Source of the DNA: Gemmatimonadetes bacterium T265
GTDB taxonomy: Bacteria; Gemmatimonadota; Gemmatimonadetes; Gemmatimonadales; Gemmatimonadaceae
Assembly (NCBI GenBank): GCA_019973575.1
Contig: BPUI01000001.1
Coordinates: forward strand, 2,058,342-2,122,341
Reading direction: 5' to 3'
Length of the DNA: 64,000 bases
Positions 47,115 through 57,232 of this stretch are shown piece after piece (position 1 is the first letter of the stretch; the number at the start of each line of letters is the position of its first letter). The translations under genes and the position numbers were made by a program. A model generated the notes under the pieces. The model was not told the origin of the DNA, ran no database searches, and saw only the letters and a program-made list of their open reading frames with translations.

Positions 47115-48860
47115 TCAGGGCGCGGCGCCGGCCAGTACCGGGAGGATCAGGCGCGATGACGAGCGCACCGTGTTCAGGGCGGTCGTCCCCACGCTCGCGT
47201 GGCGAAAGCCGAGCATCGCCGGCGCGTCGGGGTGCTGGTCGTCGTTGGTGATGAGGACCCGGATGCGGTGGCCGCGGCGGAAGCGCCGGGCATTGGCTAC
47301 CAGAGGGATCCGGTAGTGGACCGGCTCGCCGACGGGCACCGCCGTGAACGCGCGGCAGGGAAGGACGGGCGATCCGGGGCGGCTCCGTTCTTCGTCCACC
47401 GCCCGCAGGCCCGCCCGCAGATAACCCGCCGTCACGTCCGCCACCCGGCCGTCGCCGTCCACGTCCTGCACGAACACGAGCCAGGCCGTGTCCGGTGCCG
47501 TACTGACGGCGTCCAGCGCCAGCTCGAGCGAGCCGACCACGTCGAGGTCTTCCGCGAGGGGATCGCTCGTCCACGTCAGCACCGACGGCGGGTCCGTCGG
47601 GCTCGCGTCGGGGCGGCTCAGCCCCGCGCCGAGGGTGAGCAGCGTGCGCGACCCCGGCTCGCCTTCGTCCACCCGGAGTGCCCCGTCGGCGCACAGCGCC
47701 AGCGCGCGCTCGGTCGTCCCTCCGACCGGCCACGACGGCGCGGAGTGCCACCCTTCAGCGCCCGGGATGACGTAGCGGACCGGCGGCCCGTCGAGGCCCG
47801 TGTCCCTGCCCTTGAGCCACTGGTCGAACCAGGCCAGGGCCTCGACGTGCAGGCTCTCCCACGGCCAGGCCAGGCCGTGCTCGCCCAGCATCGTCATCTG
47901 GACGCGCGGGCTGCCGGTGAGCGCGGCGTAGGTAGAGAACGTGGACGGCAGGTGCAGCGGCACGTTCGCCCAATCGCAGCCGAGGTACACCGGCACGTCG
48001 ACTTGGGGGAGGAGCGGCAGCAGGTTCCGCTCGTCCCACCACGCGTCGCGCAGCGGGTGTTCGACCGCGACGGCGCGCCAGAGGTCGTCCCAGGGGTGGG
48101 GGTCGTGAGGCAGCTTCGACAGGCCGGCGTTCCCGCCACCGCCTGTCATCGTCTCGAACCGCTTGTGTATGGGGCCGGTCATCAGGACGCGGCGTACGGC
48201 GTCCACGAGCGGATTGCGCCAGACCGCGTCCGGGAGGCCCGCGGTCACGCCGAGCATGGCGAGGAACGGGGTGACGAAGGACGAACTCAGCAGGCCGTGG
48301 TGGACGGCCGCCTCGTACAGGTCCGCGCTCGCCGCCGGCGCGAAGATCGCCCGGAGGTGTGGCGGCCGTTCGACGGCCGCCTCCAGTTGCGTCATCGCGA
48401 AGTAGCTGATCCCGACCATGCCGACGGCGCCGTCCGACCAGGGTTGCTGGCCCGCCCACTCCACCAGGTCGCGCACGTCGCGCCGCTCCTGGCCGTCGAA
48501 GAAGCCGAAGGTCTCGCCGGAGCCGCCCGTGCCGCGGAGGTTGGCGATCACGTGGACGTAGCCGCGCGGGACGAAGAAGTCGCTCGCGCCCGCCTCGATG
48601 AAGCCCAGCGGGGCGCCGACGTTCTGGACCTGCCGCGGGTACGGCGAGGCGGCCACGAGCACCGGGTACCGGCCCGGCGTCGTCGGCCGGTAGACATCGG
48701 CGAGGAGGGTGACGCCGTCGCGCATCGGGACGGCGACGTTCTCGTCGCACGTCATCCCGTGCTGCGGCGTCGAGAGGCCGCGGTACTCGCGGCCGGACGT
48801 TTGCGGGCCGTTGAGGTGGCGCTGGCCCGGGTCGACGCCCGCGACCTGGGGGGCGCTCAT
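47115..48860 (-). CDS. CocE/NonD-family serine hydrolase
   Basis: 581 residues, X-Pro dipeptidyl-peptidase (S15)/cocaine-esterase fold. Nucleophile Ser152 in GMVGISYFAMTQ, preceded by 'RGTGGSGETFGFFDGQERRD' and 'LVEWAGQQPWSDGAVGM', and the C-terminal jelly-roll domain (about 380-575). The catalytic His is in MLGEHGLAWPWE or nearby. Esterase or amidase for a xenobiotic-like acyl ester. It faces the TetR gene at 49,044 across a region with a TGACA/TGTCA operator, so it is probably derepressed by its substrate. Converges on the lone large-subunit gene. Confidence 0.9.
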   Translation of the reverse strand: MSAPQVAGVDPGQRHLNGPQTSGREYRGLSTPQHGMTCDENVAVPMRDGVTLLADVYRPTTPGRYPVLVAASPYPRQVQNVGAPLGFIEAGASDFFVPRGYVHVIANLRGTGGSGETFGFFDGQERRDVRDLVEWAGQQPWSDGAVGMVGISYFAMTQLEAAVERPPHLRAIFAPAASADLYEAAVHHGLLSSSFVTPFLAMLGVTAGLPDAVWRNPLVDAVRRVLMTGPIHKRFETMTGGGGNAGLSKLPHDPHPWDDLWRAVAVEHPLRDAWWDERNLLPLLPQVDVPVYLGCDWANVPLHLPSTFSTYAALTGSPRVQMTMLGEHGLAWPWESLHVEALAWFDQWLKGRDTGLDGPPVRYVIPGAEGWHSAPSWPVGGTTERALALCADGALRVDEGEPGSRTLLTLGAGLSRPDASPTDPPSVLTWTSDPLAEDLDVVGSLELALDAVSTAPDTAWLVFVQDVDGDGRVADVTAGYLRAGLRAVDEERSRPGSPVLPCRAFTAVPVGEPVHYRIPLVANARRFRRGHRIRVLITNDDQHPDAPAMLGFRHASVGTTALNTVRSSSRLILPVLAGAAP

Positions 48861-49006
48861 GACGTCACGGCTCGTACGGCGCGGAGGCGCCCGCGGCCCG
48901 GCGAATCGCGGCGGGCTCGTTGGTCTGGCGCGCGCCGCGCAACGGCTCTTGCAGGTCGGCGAAGAGGACCGTCACTGTAGAGGGAGCGATCATACGCCGC
49001 ATATTA

Positions 49007-49028
49007 TGACACTCGATGCCGTTTGTCA
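49007..49028. promoter_or_regulatory. TetR operator TGACA-N12-TGTCA
   Basis: Inverted repeat TGACA (49007-49011), N12, TGTCA (49024-49028), just before the TetR start and in the CocE promoter. A related site with both arms changed in concert (TAACA/TGTTA) occurs at 54,637-54,658. Confidence 0.65.
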
Positions 49029-49043
49029 CCACGTGCCCGTACA

Positions 49044-49640
49044 GTGACTGTATCCCCGCGCGGCTTGCGCGCGCGCAAGCGGGACCGCGTGCGCGAGCAG
49101 CTCACCGAAGCCGCGTTCACGCTTTTCCTCCGCGACGGCTACGACGCGACGACGGTCGACGCGATCGCCGCCGCCGCCGAGGTCTCGCGCCGGACGTTCT
49201 TCCGCTACTTCGGGACGAAGGAGGACGTGCTGCTCGCGTGGGTCGAGCTTCGCGATGGTGCGCTCCGGGCCGCGCTCGCCGAACGCCCGCGGGGGGAGCC
49301 ACCACTCGCGACGGTCCGGGCCGCCCTCGCGCCGCTCGTCGCCTACTACGAGGCCGCCCCCGAGCGGTGGCGGGCGATCATGCGCCTGAGCGCGGCGCAC
49401 CCCGTGTTGGGCGGGCGCCGGCGCGAGAAGCAGGCGCGGTGGGAGCGCACGCTCGCCGAGGGGGTCGCGGCGGCGCTCGGCGTCGGTGCCGACGCCCTGC
49501 GGGCCCAGTTGGCCGCGCGGGTGGGCCTCGCGGCGTTCGAGACGGCGGTCGAGGCGTGGATGCGGGACGATCCTCCCGGCGCGCTCTCCCGACTGGTCGA
49601 CGACGCCTTCGCGCTCCTGGCGCGCGACTTCGGGTCGTGA
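49044..49640 (+). CDS. TetR-family regulator
   Basis: 198 residues. 'KRDRVREQLTEAAFTLFLRD', GYDATTVDAIAAAAEVSRRT and FFRYFGTKEDVLLAWVEL give the TetR helix-turn-helix (residues about 20-65); the remaining 130 residues form the ligand domain. Starts considered: GTG 49044 (used, inside the conserved start) and TTG 49023. Divergent from the CocE-type hydrolase; likely binds the TGACA-N12-TGTCA site between them. It is the intact paralogue of the TetR remnant at 54,390-54,632. Confidence 0.9.
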   Translation: MTVSPRGLRARKRDRVREQLTEAAFTLFLRDGYDATTVDAIAAAAEVSRRTFFRYFGTKEDVLLAWVELRDGALRAALAERPRGEPPLATVRAALAPLVAYYEAAPERWRAIMRLSAAHPVLGGRRREKQARWERTLAEGVAAALGVGADALRAQLAARVGLAAFETAVEAWMRDDPPGALSRLVDDAFALLARDFGS

Positions 49641-49787
49641 GCAGTCGCCTTCGCGTTTGTAGCTTACAAGAAGAGGACTGTTTATGAGTCAGCAGGACAC
49701 TTAACAGTCCCGCCGCGACCGACTCGAAGGGCTCGTCGCCGAGTTCCCCGACCGCGAGGTCCAGCCGCTGGCCACACGGCCCTTTGG

Positions 49788-50396
49788 CTACGGCCCAGGT
49801 GGGGGCGCGAGCTCCGCATCGGCCGGGGGGCGCAGGCCGTCGAGCGCCGTCTGGAGGATGGGCTCGACGTAGCCGCCGTCGCCGGCGATCCGGGCGACGG
49901 CGACGAGCAAGTCGAGCACCTGCTCGAGCGTGAGGTCGCGGCGCACCGCGCCGGCCTGCCGCGCGGCGGCGAATAGCGGCCGGCCGGCGGCGAGCACGCG
50001 CGCGCGGCTGGCGCCGAACACGGGGTCGCTGGCGTCGGTGTGTTCGAGCAGCTCGGCGGCGACGTGGCGCTTGGCCGTCGCGAAGGTGAAGAACTGGCGC
50101 AGCCACGCCGCGAACGCCGCGCCCGGCGCGTCGCCGCCCACGCCGTCGGCGGCCGCCGGCGCGGCCGCGCAGACGGCGTTCACCTCGTCGGTATACAGGG
50201 CCTCGAGGAGCTCGCGGCGACCGGGAAAGTGGCGGTAGAGCGTCGCCATCCCCACGCCGGCACGCCGCGCGATCTCGGCCATGGACACCTCGGCGCGCGG
50301 GTCGGCGAAGGCGGCCCGGGCGGCCGCAAGGACCTTCTCGCGGTTGCGCTCGGCGTCGGCACGCCGCGGTGGCGGTGGAAGCGGGTCAGCGGGCAT
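49788..50396 (-). CDS. TetR-family regulator
   Basis: 202 residues. 'NREKVLAAARAAFADPRAEV' (preceded by RRADAER), SMAEIARRAGVGMATLYRHF and PGRRELLEAL form the HTH region near residues 14-60. The C-terminal domain (LLEHTDASDPVFGASRAR) is a SACE_7040-type TetR_C. Divergent from the alpha/beta hydrolase at 50,502, with two 8-3-8 palindromes in the 105-base gap, so autoregulation and control of the hydrolase and following Gfo/Idh gene are probable. Confidence 0.9.
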   Translation of the reverse strand: MPADPLPPPPRRADAERNREKVLAAARAAFADPRAEVSMAEIARRAGVGMATLYRHFPGRRELLEALYTDEVNAVCAAAPAAADGVGGDAPGAAFAAWLRQFFTFATAKRHVAAELLEHTDASDPVFGASRARVLAAGRPLFAAARQAGAVRRDLTLEQVLDLLVAVARIAGDGGYVEPILQTALDGLRPPADAELAPPPGP

Positions 50397-50405
50397 ATAG
50401 ATCTA

Positions 50406-50457
50406 AGTGGACAATCTATCCGGTCCGTGTTACCATAAAGCGGATACCCTATCCGCT
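50406..50457. promoter_or_regulatory. Two operators of 8-3-8 form in the TetR/hydrolase gap
   Basis: AGCGGATA-CCC-TATCCGCT (50439-50457) is a perfect palindrome. A second, imperfect copy AGTGGACA-ATC-TATCCGGT lies at 50406-50424. Centres are 33 bases apart, three helical turns, so two dimers can bind on one face. This is the layout expected for the divergent TetR gene at 50,396. Confidence 0.75.
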
Positions 50458-50501
50458 AGCACACGCTTCCGACTCACCTTCGCAACACGGAGGACCAGAT
50501 C

Positions 50502-51464
50502 ATGAGCCAACCGATCAATCAAGCCGAGCACATCCCCACCAGCGCGCCCACGCCCGTCGTCTCGGTCGCGCCCGTGGTGCTGCCCGCCCCGGGTCGCGCC
50601 GTGGACCTCGCGCTGCGCGTCTCCGCACCCGTGACCGGGCGCGACCTCCCCATCATCCTGCTGTCGCACGGCCACGGGAACTCGAACAACCTCTCGTCCC
50701 TGAACGGCTACGGCCCACTGGTGAACTGGTGGGCGGCGCACGGCTTCGTCGTCATCCAGCCCACGCACCTGAGCTCGAAGACGCTCCGCGGCGTCGTCGA
50801 CCCGAACGGCCCGGAGGGCCCGCTGTTCTGGCGCTCCCGCGCCGAGGACATGCACCGCGTCCTCGACGGCCTCGACGCCGTCGAGGCGGCCGTCCCGGCG
50901 ATCGGCGGGCGCCTGGACCGCGGCCGGATCGCCGTCGCCGGGCACTCGTTAGGCGGGCTGACGGCCGGCATGCTGTTAGGCGAACGCGTCGTCGACGCGA
51001 GCGGCTCCGAAGTGAATCTGGCCGACCCCCGGATCGCGGCGGGGGTGATCATGGGCGCGCCCGGCGGCGGCGCCGACCTCACCGGGCCCATGGGCGAGCG
51101 GTTCCCGGTCCTGCGCAACCTGCACTTCGACACGATGACGGCCCCGGCCCTCGTGGTGGTCGGCGACCGGGACGTCAACCCCGCCTTCTCGGACCGCCTC
51201 GAGTACCGCGCCGGGGCGTACACCCTGAGCCCCGGCCCCAAGTGCCTGCTCACGCTCTTCGGCGCCGAACACATTTTCGGCGGGATCTCCGGGTACGACG
51301 CGGCCGAGACGAGCGACGAGAGCCCCGAGCGGGTGGAGGCGGTCGCGCGGCTGGCCTGGGCCTACCTGCGCACCGCGCTCTACCCCGAGGACCGCGCGTG
51401 GCCCGCCGCGTGTGCCGCCCTGGCGGACGGCCCCGCGCCGCTGGGCCGGGTCGACTGCAAGTGA
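50502..51464 (+). CDS. Alpha/beta hydrolase (PAF-acetylhydrolase/chlorophyllase-like)
   Basis: 320 residues, no signal peptide. 'LPIILLSHGHGNSNNLSSLN' provides the oxyanion loop, the nucleophile is Ser149 in VAGHSLGGLTAGML, and a candidate base is the His in FGAEHIFGG. This combination is seen in predicted dienelactone-hydrolase or chlorophyllase-like bacterial proteins. Starts with ATG 50502 directly after the two TetR operators, followed 29 bases later by a Gfo/Idh dehydrogenase, so the two form an operon. Confidence 0.87.
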   Translation: MSQPINQAEHIPTSAPTPVVSVAPVVLPAPGRAVDLALRVSAPVTGRDLPIILLSHGHGNSNNLSSLNGYGPLVNWWAAHGFVVIQPTHLSSKTLRGVVDPNGPEGPLFWRSRAEDMHRVLDGLDAVEAAVPAIGGRLDRGRIAVAGHSLGGLTAGMLLGERVVDASGSEVNLADPRIAAGVIMGAPGGGADLTGPMGERFPVLRNLHFDTMTAPALVVVGDRDVNPAFSDRLEYRAGAYTLSPGPKCLLTLFGAEHIFGGISGYDAAETSDESPERVEAVARLAWAYLRTALYPEDRAWPAACAALADGPAPLGRVDCK

Positions 51465-51493
51465 GGCGCTGAACTCCAGGAGAACCGCACACC

Positions 51494-52612
51494 ATGCCAA
51501 CGCTCATGACAACACCGCGCATCCGGGTCGGCATCGTCGGCCTGCAGCCGGGCAGGAGTTGGGCGGCGCGTGCGCACGTGCCCGCCCTGCGGGCGCTGCG
51601 CGACGACTACGAGATCGTCGGCGTCGCCAACACCAGCCGCGCCAGCGGCGAGCAGGCCGCGGCGGCGTTAGGCATACCGCGGGCGTTCGCCGACGCGGCC
51701 GAGTTGGTCGCGGCGCCCGACGTCGACGTGGTCGCCGCGACGGTGCGGGTGTCGGCGCACCGCGCGGTCGTGCAGGCCGCCATCGAGGCGGGCAAGCACG
51801 TCTACTGCGAGTGGCCGCTCGGCAACGGCCTCGCCGAGGCCGAGGCACTCGCCGCGCTGGCGCGCGCCAGGGGCGTGCTCGGCGTGATCGGCACCCAGGC
51901 GCGTGTCGCCCCGGCGATCGAGCACCTGAAGCGACTGATCGCCGACGGCTTCGTCGGCGAGGTCCTGTCGACCACGCTCGTCGCGTGGGGCGGCGGCTGG
52001 GGCGGCGTCATCTCCGAGAAGAAGAACAACGCCTACCTCCTCGACAACGCCGGCGGCGCCACCATGTTGACGATTCCGGTGGGGCACACCCTGGCGGCCC
52101 TCACGGAGGTGCTGGGCCGGGTCGAGGCGGTGTCGTCGGTCCTCGCCACGCGGCGCACCACGGCCGTCGTCGCCAACACCGGCGAGACGCTCCCCGTGAC
52201 GGCTCCCGACCAGGTGCTGGTCAGCGGCGTCCTCGCGGGCGGCGCGCCGATCTCGCTCCACTACCGCGGCGGCATGCCGCGCGACGGCAACGGCCTGATC
52301 TGGGAGATCGACGGCACCGAGGGAAACGTCCGCGTCCTGGGCCCCTTCGGCCACGCGCAGCTGGTGCCGCTCTCGCTCACGGGGGCGCGGGGCGGCGAGA
52401 AGACGTTCCGGCCGCTCGAAGTCCCCGCGGCCGCCGACGCCCGCTTCCCCGAGGACCCGGTGCCGGGGAACGTCGCCCGCAACTACGCGCGGATGGCGAC
52501 CGACCTGCGCGCGGGCACGCGCACCGCGCCCAGCTTCGACGACGCGGTCGCGATCCACCGCGTCCTCTCGGCGATCGAGCGGGCGGCCGAGGGTCGACAC
52601 GTCGCGGTCTGA
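51494..52612 (+). CDS. Gfo/Idh/MocA-family oxidoreductase (Gal80-like branch)
   Basis: 372 residues. 'PRIRVGIVGLQPGRSWAARA' is the Rossmann start and GKHVYCEWPLGNGLAEAEAL the family motif, in which EWP replaces the catalytic EKP as in the protein at 43,292. The region 'YLLDNAGGATMLTIPVGHTL' marks the C-terminal sheet with the substrate His. Gal80-like members lack normal dehydrogenase activity or act on galactose-type substrates; either is possible. Second gene of the TetR-controlled hydrolase operon. Confidence 0.85.
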   Translation: MPTLMTTPRIRVGIVGLQPGRSWAARAHVPALRALRDDYEIVGVANTSRASGEQAAAALGIPRAFADAAELVAAPDVDVVAATVRVSAHRAVVQAAIEAGKHVYCEWPLGNGLAEAEALAALARARGVLGVIGTQARVAPAIEHLKRLIADGFVGEVLSTTLVAWGGGWGGVISEKKNNAYLLDNAGGATMLTIPVGHTLAALTEVLGRVEAVSSVLATRRTTAVVANTGETLPVTAPDQVLVSGVLAGGAPISLHYRGGMPRDGNGLIWEIDGTEGNVRVLGPFGHAQLVPLSLTGARGGEKTFRPLEVPAAADARFPEDPVPGNVARNYARMATDLRAGTRTAPSFDDAVAIHRVLSAIERAAEGRHVAV

Positions 52613-52667
52613 CGTGGGCGGTCGCAGGTTCCCACGCGCACCCGCCGGTCCGCAGCGTGCGCGGCTA

Positions 52668-53327
52668 CTACCGGTCAGTGCCCGTGTTCGGCCACTGGGC
52701 CTCCAAGCCGGCCAGCAGTTCGCGCCGTGCCAGCTCGACTCGCCGTTGCCGGGCGGCGGGCGACGCCTCCTCCAGGCCGAGCAGCAATCGCAGCACGTCG
52801 GTGCCAAACAGGTGATCCACGAACGCGGCGCTCAGTTGCGCGGGCTCGCCGTCCGCCAGGTCTGCCGCCGGCACCTTCGCCGACAACACCTGCGCGATCA
52901 CGTCCTCCCAATGCCCCACTAACGCCCGGTAAGTCATCTCAGCGAGGTGGGGGAAATGGCCGGCCTCCGCCACCACCGTCCTTAGGAGCGCGACCGTCTC
53001 AGGCCGGGCGATGCGCTGTTGAGCGGACCTGCCGGCCGCGTCCAGGATCTCGGCCAGCGGCCGCCGCATGAACGCCGCAAGGGCAGCTTGTTCGGCGGGG
53101 TCGGCCAGGTCACACGCGTCGGTGATCACGGCCGCGAACAGGTCGTCCTTGCCCTGGGCATGGCGGTACAGCGTCATGATCGACACGCCGGCAGCGGCGG
53201 CCACCGCCTCCATGCTCGTTCCCTCGTAGCCGCGGGCCAGGAACGACGCCCTGGCGGCGCCGAGGATGTCGGCCCGCTTTCCGGCCATCAGCTTCGCCTT
53301 GGGGTGGTCGGCACTCCACGTCTTCAT
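52668..53327 (-). CDS. TetR-family regulator with AefR-like C-terminal domain
   Basis: 219 residues. 'KRADILGAARASFLARGYEG' and TSMEAVAAAAGVSIMTLYRH give the HTH; 'KDDLFAAVITDACDLADPAE' and the C-terminal 'AFVDHLFGTDVLRLLLGLEE' match AefR/TetR_C_7 proteins. It is divergent from the DoxX-like gene at 53,397, the only obvious target. Confidence 0.9.
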   Translation of the reverse strand: MKTWSADHPKAKLMAGKRADILGAARASFLARGYEGTSMEAVAAAAGVSIMTLYRHAQGKDDLFAAVITDACDLADPAEQAALAAFMRRPLAEILDAAGRSAQQRIARPETVALLRTVVAEAGHFPHLAEMTYRALVGHWEDVIAQVLSAKVPAADLADGEPAQLSAAFVDHLFGTDVLRLLLGLEEASPAARQRRVELARRELLAGLEAQWPNTGTDR

Positions 53328-53350
53328 AGCCCCCTCGCAGTCACGATCGA

Positions 53351-53370
53351 ACGATAGTAGAGTATATCGT
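53351..53370. promoter_or_regulatory. Operator-like palindrome ACGATA-N8-TATCGT
   Basis: A perfect 6-base inverted repeat, ACGATA (53351-53356) and TATCGT (53365-53370), in the 69-base gap between the TetR gene and the DoxX-like gene. Confidence 0.6.
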
Positions 53371-53396
53371 ATCTCTCGAATCGGAACGAGCTATCG

Positions 53397-53786
53397 ATGC
53401 CCCACCCCGCTCACGGCCAGGTGCTCAACGCCTCTTTGTGGGTGACCCAGGCGCTCCTCTGTCTCTCGTTCTGCATTGGCGGCGTGATGAAGCTCGGGCT
53501 GCCGGTCGAGCGGCTGTCCAAGCTGTTTGCGTGGACCGGGGAGGTGCCCAAGCCCTTCCTCCGGTTCATCGGGGCGGTCGACCTGGCCGGCGGCGTCGGC
53601 ATCCTGCTGCCGGAACTTACGAACGTCCTGCCACAACTGACCGTGCCGGCGGCGCTCGGCTGCACGGTCCTCCAGGCGTGTGCCATCGCATTCCACACGC
53701 GACGGGGCGAGTTGCGTGAGACGCCCGCCAACTTCGTCTTTCTGGCGCTGTCGGCCTTCGTCCTCTGGGGTCGGTGGGGTGACTAG
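53397..53786 (+). CDS. DoxX-like small membrane protein
   Basis: 129 residues, four hydrophobic segments: 'ASLWVTQALLCLSFCIGGVM' (with the following KLGLPVE, the DoxX Lys), 'KPFLRFIGAVDLAGGVGILL', 'LTVPAALGCTVLQACAIAFH' and 'FVFLALSAFVLWG'. Matches the DoxX_2 family; function generally unknown. Under the TetR gene at 53,327. Confidence 0.85.
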   Translation: MPHPAHGQVLNASLWVTQALLCLSFCIGGVMKLGLPVERLSKLFAWTGEVPKPFLRFIGAVDLAGGVGILLPELTNVLPQLTVPAALGCTVLQACAIAFHTRRGELRETPANFVFLALSAFVLWGRWGD

Positions 53787-53804
53787 GGCAGATCGCGGTT
53801 GGGT

Positions 53805-54330
53805 TCAGCGCGGGACTGCGCCGCCGTAGCCGCAGTGATGGAAGTACCCCCGCGCGTCGTCGGCCGTGATCGCGTCGACGAGCGTCGTGAGCGCGGTGTC
53901 GAGCGCCGCGGTCGTGCGGGCGCCGACGCCGCGCAGCAACTGCTTCAGCTTGCTGCAGGCGGCCTCGATGGAGTTGAGATCGGGCGGGTAGGGCGGGAGC
54001 ACGAGCAGCGTGCACCTGGCGCACGGCGTCGACGCTGAGTGGGTCCCGGTCCGCTCGCGGTACGCGTGGGCCAGCTCGGAGAGCGTGCGCTCGGTCTTGT
54101 CCTCGACCGGGCCTCCAGCACCGGCGCGCCCGCGGCGTAGACCTTCGGCGGCATACCGCCCCGTGCGGCTTCGCGGCCGCGCTGCCGGTCAGGCGCTCGC
54201 GGCGCAGCCAGTTGCGCACCGTGCTCGCGCCCACGCGGACGCGCCCCGCGATCACGCCGGGGCTCAGGTGGTCGTCGTGCGCCGCGGCGAGCACGCGCGC
54301 GCGCAGGCCTGGTGAGTAGGGGACCGAAAC
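53805..54330 (-). mobile_element. IS630-family transposase remnant
   Basis: Start region LRARVLAAAHDDHLSPG, 'AGRVRVGASTVRNWLRRERL' (HTH of IS630), then 'GGMPPKVYAAGAPVLEA' in another frame, and the end 'LPPYPPDLNSIEAACSKLKQ' with 'ITADDARGYFHHCGYG', the DDE Glu motif PDLNxIE of the IS630/Tc1 family. The segment with the two catalytic Asp residues is deleted and the rest is frameshifted, so it is dead. Confidence 0.8.
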
Positions 54331-54389
54331 GGGACGCCTCCGGGGTGGGGCCTCCGACGGCCCACATCAGTCGCGCCACCACACACGGC

Positions 54390-54632
54390 CTACCAGCTAC
54401 GAGCAACCGCGTTCTGCTCTAGTGAGGGCTCGCCGCGCGGGCGAGCGTCGAGGACCGCGTGCAACGCGTCGTCGCGGAGCTCGATCCACGCCAGCAGCAC
54501 GTCCTCCTTCGGCCCGAAGTGGCGGAAGAACGTCCTCCGGGACACGTCGGCGGCGTCGGTGAGCCGCTCGCGCAGGTGGTCCTGCTTCCGCCCACGCAAT
54601 CCGCCCGGTGGACCAGTTTCCTGGTCTGGCAC
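54390..54632 (-). pseudogene. TetR remnant, paralogue of the regulator at 49,044
   Basis: Reads 'KQDHLRERLTDAADVSRRTF', FRHFGPKEDVLLAWIELRDD and ARPRGEPSLEQNAV. Against the intact protein it lacks about 20 residues, from LTDAA to DVSRRTF, without frame loss, so the first half of the helix-turn-helix is gone. After RGEPSL the protein ends at sequence bordering the IS630 remnant. Cannot bind DNA as it stands. Confidence 0.75.
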
Positions 54633-54636
54633 TATG

Positions 54637-54658
54637 TAACAAATGGCACCGGGTGTTA
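54637..54658. promoter_or_regulatory. Paralogous TetR operator TAACA-N12-TGTTA
   Basis: TAACA (54637-54641), N12, TGTTA (54654-54658), matching the minus-strand promoter of the TetR remnant. The sequence around it, read on the minus strand, aligns with 49,001-49,036 near the intact TetR gene, spacer length included. Confidence 0.6.
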
Positions 54659-55080
54659 TATTATGTGCTGTGTGATCCCTTTGCCCACACCCTTTGGCCC
54701 GGCTCGTCGATCTACAAGGGTCGTGCGCGGCGTGTGCCGGACGAACGAGGTCGACGCGATACGCCGGGGCATGGGGCCCTCCACCCTCCATGATTCTACC
54801 CCGACCTGCTGTTCTACCGCGCTCGCCGGCCGGGTCCAACACCCGACCGGTCGTCAGCTTCAAAGTGTACGCGGTGCTCTCGCCCGACGTGCTGCAGGAG
54901 GTGCGTCGGATGCCAGACGTGTTCCTGGGCGATGTCGCGCCCCCGGCGCTCGCAAGATCCGGCCGCTCCGTGCTCCAGACCGTGCTCACCGCCGGGATCG
55001 CCGTCGCACGCCACCCTTCGTGTCCGCCGCGACGGCGGCACGCCACGACACCCTGAGACCGAACAGGTGAGGAGGCTCTC
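54659..55080. other. Intergenic region upstream of the small conserved gene
   Basis: About 420 bases with no supportable gene; it separates the TetR remnant from the gene at 55,081 and must contain the promoter of the latter. I see no repeat apart from the operator at its left edge. Confidence 0.4.
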
Positions 55081-55464: not shown

Positions 55465-55558
55465 GGCAGTCCCACACGGCGCAATGGACGCCCCGCGCGG
55501 GACGCACCACGCCCCCGCACGGAGGCCTGCCACGCAGCGGAAACCGGAGGACGGGCCA

Positions 55559-57232
55559 ATGATCGTCGATCGCAACGTTCGGATTCCTCGGCGGGACGGC
55601 CCCGACGTCGTCGCGGACGTGTTCCGACCCGACAGGGGGAAGGGCCGGGTGGAACAGTTTCCCGTCCTCGTGACGGTGGGGGTTTACGGGAAGGACGTCC
55701 CGTTCAGAGTCTTCAACCCGAAGGGCTGGGAGCGCTCGGAACTGAAGAGCGGCGAAGGGCCGCGGGACTACATCGTCGGCGAGACGCCGCTGCCTGACTT
55801 CTGGGTGCGTGCGGGCTACGCGGTCGTCCGCTGCGACCAGCCCGGGTCGGGCGACTCGCCCGGCGACCTGGACGTGTTCGGCCCTGCCGCGCAGGCGGCG
55901 TTCTACGACGCCGTCGAGTGGGCCGGCACGCAATCCTGGAGTACCGGCAAAGTCGGCGTGTTCGGGGCCTCCTACTACGGCGTCATGGGGTGGCTGGTCG
56001 CCGGCTTGCGGCCGCCGCACCTCGCCGCGTTCCTCCCCTTCCAGGGGTTCACCGACCACTACCGCGACTGCATGCGACACGGCGGGATCCTGACGGCCGG
56101 ATTCGTCGACAGCTGGTACGGCCGTGAAGTGCTGCCGCGGCAGTTCGGCGCGCCGACGGGAACGTCGGGCGCGAAGCTCTCCGCCGACGAACTGACCGCG
56201 AACACGGCGTTCCCGAAGGATTACCGGGAGTACCTGCGCGACGACGCGCTACGCTACGCGACGCACGAGTATTACCGCGCACGGACCCCGGATCCGGCCG
56301 CCGTCACGGTCCCGGTCTTCGCGTGGGCGAACGACGACGGGTTCGGACTCCACCTGCGCGGGACCATCGAAGGATTCGGGCTGGCCCGGAACGCCGCCTT
56401 CTGCGCGCTCTATGCCTATAGCGGGACCGAGCCCGACTCGATGTACTCGACGGAGTTCTCCGACATCCATCGACGCTTCTTCGATCGCTTTCTCAAGGGC
56501 GAGGAGAACGGGTTCGAGCACGAACCGCGGGTGCGCGTGACCGTGCGGAAGGACGGGCGGCCGTTCGCCGAGCGGCGCGGCACGACGTACCCGCTGGATG
56601 GGACGGAGGCGCGGAGGTTCTACCTGGAGTGCGGGCGTCACGCGCTCCTCGACGAAGCACCGGGCGATGCGAGGACGACCGCGTACAGGTCCGAGTACGG
56701 GTCGGACGGAGTCGTACAGTTCTGCACGCCGGCGCTGGAGCGCGACCTCGAGATCGTTGGGCCGATGCGATTGCACCTGACGGTGTCCGCCGACGGTCCG
56801 GACGCGGACCTGTTCGTGGCCGTCCGCGAGCTCCGGCCCGACGGCAGCGAGGTCGTGGCCGCGAGCGGCAGTCCGATCGCGCTGTCGTGGCAGCGGGTGT
56901 CGATGCGGCACGCCGATCCGGCGCAGTCCTCGACGTTCCGGACCTGGCACACGTACGACCGCACGCTGCCGCTGGACCCCGGAGTTCCCGTGACGCTCGA
57001 CGTCAACCTCTGGCCCGCGGCCTGGATCGTCGCCGCCGGGAATCGTCTCGCGATCGAGATCGGAGGCAACGAGCCGAAAGGTGCCGGCGAGTATACCCAC
57101 CCGCCGGCGGGGCCGTACGCCTCCCCGGGCCGTGCGCCGCTGGACAACGGCGCACCGGCTCCCGCCGAGGTGCGCCTGCACTCCGGTGGGGAGGAGCCGA
57201 GCTACGTCGTCCTTCCGGTCGTGCCCGCATGA
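55559..57232 (+). CDS. CocE/NonD-family serine hydrolase
   Basis: 557 residues. Nucleophile Ser138 in KVGVFGASYYGVM, preceded by 'RCDQPGSGDSPGDLDVFGPA' and WAGTQSWSTG; the C-terminal jelly-roll starts around residue 340 ('RVTVRKDGRPFAERRGTTYP'). A sibling of the protein at 47,115 with the same architecture but clearly diverged sequence. ATG 55559 is behind a GGAGG site; an in-frame ATG at 55,484 adds 25 unlikely residues. Its stop overlaps the next gene (ATGA). Confidence 0.9.
   Translation: MIVDRNVRIPRRDGPDVVADVFRPDRGKGRVEQFPVLVTVGVYGKDVPFRVFNPKGWERSELKSGEGPRDYIVGETPLPDFWVRAGYAVVRCDQPGSGDSPGDLDVFGPAAQAAFYDAVEWAGTQSWSTGKVGVFGASYYGVMGWLVAGLRPPHLAAFLPFQGFTDHYRDCMRHGGILTAGFVDSWYGREVLPRQFGAPTGTSGAKLSADELTANTAFPKDYREYLRDDALRYATHEYYRARTPDPAAVTVPVFAWANDDGFGLHLRGTIEGFGLARNAAFCALYAYSGTEPDSMYSTEFSDIHRRFFDRFLKGEENGFEHEPRVRVTVRKDGRPFAERRGTTYPLDGTEARRFYLECGRHALLDEAPGDARTTAYRSEYGSDGVVQFCTPALERDLEIVGPMRLHLTVSADGPDADLFVAVRELRPDGSEVVAASGSPIALSWQRVSMRHADPAQSSTFRTWHTYDRTLPLDPGVPVTLDVNLWPAAWIVAAGNRLAIEIGGNEPKGAGEYTHPPAGPYASPGRAPLDNGAPAPAEVRLHSGGEEPSYVVLPVVPA

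Follow-up and report, generated by a model that had tools for sequence, protein, structure and literature searches.

A duplicated divergent TetR promoter with candidate MftR-type operators and one broken regulator in Gemmatimonadetes bacterium T265

The window analyzed here, a stretch of 64,000 nucleotides from contig BPUI01000001.1 of Gemmatimonadetes bacterium T265, holds what is, on sequence grounds, an ordinary divergent TetR promoter that was duplicated and of which one regulator was then lost. Taken as a whole, the locus is best explained (with a probability of about 0.7) by an intact MftR-like regulator, TetR1, acting at a 15-bp operator of the MftR type (O1) in a promoter of which a second copy exists, the TetR gene of that copy having decayed. 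A striking 22-bp "palindrome" with an N12 spacer, present in both copies, would then consist of two separate half-sites. The features are listed in Table 1.

Table 1. Features of the two control regions and their surroundings (positions in the window).
Feature	Position	Strand	Remarks
CocE1, CocE/NonD family hydrolase	47115..48860	-	TIGR00976 over cut-off; PF02129 and PF08530
42-codon open frame between divergent promoter and CocE1	48865..48993	-	homologous, partly frame-shifted stretch in copy 2
Promoter-like GTGACA-N17-TAATAT, facing away from TetR1	49001..49029	-	1 found, 0.0 expected in shuffles
O1, copy 1, candidate MftR-type 15-mer TGACACTCGATGCCG	49007..49021	+	matrix rank 2 or 3 of all window positions
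O2, copy 1, putative, weak TGTCACCACGTGCCC	49024..49038	+	3.65 bits, rank 16 or 17
TetR1, intact MftR-like TetR regulator	49044..49640	+	GTG start, TTG at 49023 also possible; PF00440 and PF17754
Probable transposase relic adjoining the broken TetR	53800..54390	-	weak HTH_23, E 0.0015, below cut-off
TetR2 relic, broken TetR copy	54421..54622	-	63-nt helix-turn-helix deletion; no start codon and no 3' part
O2, copy 2, candidate TGTTACATAGTGCCA	54627..54641	-	rank 3 or 2 in window; 17 bp from O1
Promoter-like GTAACA-N17-TATTAT, facing CocE2	54636..54664	+	2 found, 0.1 expected
O1, copy 2, candidate TAACACCCGGTGCCA	54644..54658	-	best-scoring position in the 64-kb window
CocE2, CocE/NonD family hydrolase	55484..57232	+	TIGR00976 over cut-off

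The original prediction for this DNA pointed to TGACA-N12-TGTCA at 49007 and TAACA-N12-TGTTA at 54637, and reading the sequence confirmed both 22-mers and their N12 spacers. The pattern TRACA-N12-TGTYA has two matches in the window, against 0.01 expected from shuffles, and the same two places are its only matches in the whole 5.63-Mb assembly (none for the reversed-pattern control). We aligned the two copies of the control region with MAFFT and blastn. Their flanks proved homologous, as had been proposed, and lie in inverted orientation. By blastn, 48883-49114 and 54782-54550 are 72% identical over 236 columns, and in the TetR gene 49165-49306 and 54562-54421 are 80% identical over 142 nt. A distance of ~5.6 kb separates the two promoter copies, and a search of the genome gave no further copy of the control region.

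One TetR is intact and its paralogue is broken, also in agreement with the prediction. TetR1 scores 57.5 bits with PF00440 (cut-off 24) and 53.2 bits with PF17754 (cut-off 22.7), which identifies a TetR with an MftR-type C-terminal domain. Because it scores 111.3 bits with TIGR03968, the MftR equivalog of NCBIfam, under the cut-off of 224.9, its sequence places it as MftR-like and not as MftR itself. We also looked for a link to mycofactocin and found none: the genome was searched for mycofactocin genes with the radical-SAM enzyme TIGR03962 alone, which gave four weak matches, none over the cut-off. In the second copy, the alignment revealed one base inserted at the start codon, and homology to TetR1 ends after ~90 codons. 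In the second TetR stretch, the copies differ in a 6/6/17 distribution by codon position, indicating that the TetRs diverged under coding constraint. Decay of the second gene would have involved the 63-nt deletion, the loss of the start codon and the loss of the 3' part beside the transposase-like relic. Other places in the genome hold short pieces of this relic at 76-94%, and a plasmid search with it returned no match.

In each copy a perfect 6-bp inverted repeat lies across the TetR start codon; the two repeats occupy homologous positions and have different arm pairs: TACAGT-G-ACTGTA at 49040-49052 (+) and GACCAG-GAAA-CTGGTC at 54626-54611 (-). A stem as large as this is present in 4.9% of 24-nt stretches. 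Two more TetR genes lie within 4 kb, one SbtR-like (49788-50396, -) and one AefR-like (52668-53327, -) according to Pfam, with a DoxX-like gene diverging from the second.

The promoter and the start of the TetR gene were probably copied and inverted at a distance of ~5.6 kb, although related DNA may instead have arrived separately. The second possibility, that the two loci are related modules gained by separate horizontal transfers and not by duplication within the genome, concerns their origin alone and is compatible with our explanation of the operator. It would agree with copies that are just ~72-80% identical, with the mostly actinobacterial provenance of the 80 TetR1 relatives retrieved, and with a search of 394 further genomes from the phylum, in which no relative reached E <= 1e-25. 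The loci are, however, close neighbours and the only two copies found in the genome, so duplication is the simpler explanation and we regard separate transfer as rather unlikely.

The hydrolases have a different history. It had been proposed that a whole regulator-hydrolase module was duplicated; domain searches did find a CocE-type hydrolase divergently placed near each site, and the TetR control region is indeed doubled, with one TetR lost, but the hydrolases fall outside the duplication. CocE1 and CocE2 share 27% protein identity, against the 72-80% DNA identity of the promoter and TetR regions, and their nearest relatives differ. CocE1 shares 64.7% identity with proteins encoded on Streptomyces plasmids; in the 2 of 4 records inspected, the fetched flanks of these contain no TetR. 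A match to it at E <= 1e-60 occurs in 1 of 395 genomes of the phylum, which is its own, and viral contigs gave no relatives. The best plasmid matches of CocE2 are at 37%, from Variovorax/Cupriavidus. In a phylogeny of the ten strongest of the genome's 17 PF02129 matches (own-genome sequences only), the two CocE proteins do pair (96/96), yet their branches, 1.47 and 1.85, are very long; this fits an old shared subfamily, and co-duplication with the promoter was rejected.

The relatives of TetR1 comprised 80 loci from named genomes, to which a few loci of the same family of genomes were added. When short inverted repeats were counted in their upstream regions, the half-sites TGGCAC, TGACAC and TGGTAC emerged, arranged in a 15-bp dyad, and the aligned upstreams gave the consensus TGRCACTnAGTGYCA, ~30-115 bp ahead of the matched gene start. 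A palindromic matrix was refined on the relatives' upstreams alone, the window's two promoters being outside both training sets. A site of at least 9 bits is present in 57 of 87 relatives' upstreams, and in 54 of 79 when only named genomes are counted (upstream counts were made without L042, whose locus starts at the gene, and without L003 and L007-L010). When the window was scanned, positions 54644, 54627 and 49007 were the top three of ~64,000, at 11.5-13 bits, the next one scoring 7.9. Of 2000 column-permuted matrices, only 2 had both promoters in the top two and 116 had one or both of them there. A 15-bp TGRCACTnAGTGYCA-like site is found upstream of the regulator, in a form that is degenerate compared with the relatives, whose sites mostly score 17-26 bits. 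The offset from O1 to O2 is 17 bp in both copies; O1 and O2 score 13.1 and 11.7 bits in copy 2, against 11.8 and 3.7 bits in copy 1, where O2 is weak. Across the genome, the degenerate 15-mer, allowing at most 2 mismatches, has 224 matches per strand versus 338 for the reversed-pattern control, and since it is not enriched, the specificity of the operator would rest on its position. A literature search with the exact operator strings returned nothing related, judging by titles.

Tandem sites with this spacing are also found among relatives. A second 15-mer 17 bp from the first occurs in 5 of the 57 with a main site (L044, L051, L053, L055 and L059); the other 52 have no second site of at least 3 bits there. 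In one such tandem, TGACACTACGCTTCA-aa-TGAGACTCAGTGTCA, the two five-base "arms", spaced at 17 bp, read TGACA and TGAGA and are direct rather than inverted. The highest local identities to TetR1 were observed for L044 (53%) and L051 (55%). TetR1 forms a long branch in the protein tree, where it does not share a single clade with L044, L051 and L055, so the shared 17-bp spacing could be convergent. Other arrangements were noted as well. Another MftR-like TetR of the same genome (L004, G000:C3:148510) has strong upstream sites TGACACCGAATGCCA and TGACACGCCGTGTCA, 31 bp apart. In two loci from the same family of genomes (L093 and L094), the TetR gene at 1501 is closely preceded by a pair of TTGCACTnAGTGCA-type sites at a distance of 21 bp; this tandem operator uses another half-site.

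The original prediction took the 22-bp TGACA-N12-TGTCA itself as the operator, with arms that changed in concert and a symmetry preserved by selection. In that case, binding by TetR1, or by TetR2 before its loss, would have required the arms of copy 2 to change together. The arms do pair 5/5 in both copies, whereas only 3/7 positions of the 15-bp dyad pair in the O1 of copy 1, and the 5.6-Mb genome holds just these two sites. The relatives nevertheless speak against it. The inverted N12 dyad was found in 0 of 79 upstreams, 54 of which have the 15-bp dyad, and we rejected it as the family operator. In an earlier set of 90 loci it was absent in 87, the other three (L001, L003 and L007) covering the window's own sites, and the looser TRNYA-N12-TRNYA is matched only by L051, L055 and L059 among the 79 upstreams. 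The claim that symmetry was preserved by selection was not supported either. The two 22-mers differ at 5 of 22 positions, 2/10 in the arms and 3/12 in the spacer, a divergence much like that of the flanks, of which ~20-45% has changed. We simulated neutral drift with 28% change assumed per site, for a dyad that had been chosen after the fact: perfect arm symmetry was kept in 5.3% of simulations and kept with a change in 1.4%. The corresponding p of ~0.01-0.05 is post hoc, and these figures are suggestive of selection at most. One of the two concerted changes corresponds to position 2 of O1 and the other to position 4 of O2, two positions that do not pair with each other in the 15-bp family dyad, and the right arm, overlapping O2, sits in the -35-like hexamer of the divergent promoter. 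The matched arm changes are most likely a coincidence, and we think it quite improbable that the 22-mer is the operator; what stands of the prediction here is that the duplicated region looks operator-bearing.

The "palindrome" would instead be the left half-site of O1 followed by that of O2. Within the half-site the third base varies, being A in one (TGACA) and T in the other (TGTCA). The two differ at this position only, so that two direct repeats were read as an inverted one. The lesson is that an operator can be mistaken when a single genome is read: neighbouring direct half-sites, of which one falls in a -35-like hexamer, mimic a covarying inverted repeat, and adding relatives shifts the position of the dyad.

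A functional site of similar sequence has been described. Mycobacterium smegmatis MftR protects TCCATTCTGGCACTCGATGCCATATAT in a footprint at Omft, with the core TGGCACTCGATGCCA (PMC8728441), and TGACACTCGATGCCG at 49007-49021 is identical to this core at 13 of 15 positions. The same likeness counts, together with the intact state of TetR1, against the idea that the operator has lost its function in both copies and that the sites are drifting remnants of an ancestral one. This reading would account for the regulator lost from copy 2, the asymmetric O1 of copy 1, and O1 sites that are both 8-9 bits below a guessed ancestor, TGACACTCGGTGCCA (21.3 bits); we consider it improbable.

We favour O1 as a working operator. 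By analogy with its relatives, TetR1 very probably represses its own and the divergent promoter through this 15-bp site, which it would bind just before its own gene. In both copies O1 lies inside the spacer of the promoter-like element, and a protein bound there, with the -35-like hexamer of the divergent promoter on one side and the -10-like hexamer on the other, would block the polymerase. O2, the second, weaker site 17 bp off, may assist TetR1 binding, and a ligand would free TetR1 from O1, as expected from the family. Control of both promoters by TetR1 in trans is a more doubtful extension. Two unrelated, separately acquired CocE hydrolases would each stand behind a copy of the operator-bearing promoter, and the copy without a regulator keeps the better-scoring operators. 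If true, this would be a small natural regulon built by promoter copying, with different genes behind the copies.

The 42-codon frame on the CocE1 side starts ~8 nt past the -10-like hexamer, so that it looks leaderless, and ends 4 nt ahead of the CocE1 start. Differences between the copies are distributed 6/9/6 by codon position, without codon bias. Searches in Pfam, NCBIfam, plasmids, genomes of the phylum and solved structures gave nothing convincing; the one 45% match (E 0.005) lies in L119, a locus with open frames that read as unrelated genes. The frame at 48865-48993 presumably resembles the start of an isochorismatase-type hydrolase.

Among known systems, duplicated regulator loci with one pseudogene likewise keep a homologous promoter beside the broken regulator, and we found no feature that distinguishes the present locus from this general kind. 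With MftR (TIGR03968) and Omft of M. smegmatis (PMC8728441), it shares a TetR with an MftR C-terminal domain and the 15-bp core. Unlike that MftR, TetR1 is below the TIGR03968 cut-off, its genome has no mycofactocin radical-SAM gene over the cut-off, and its neighbours are hydrolases. The actinobacterial MftR-like proteins are just 30-55% identical to TetR1, and their divergent genes differ, judged by eye. Their TetR genes (L051, L055, L020, L036 and others), as here, have a TGRCACTnAGTGYCA-like operator shortly before them and a divergent open frame upstream, and some also have a second site 17 bp away.
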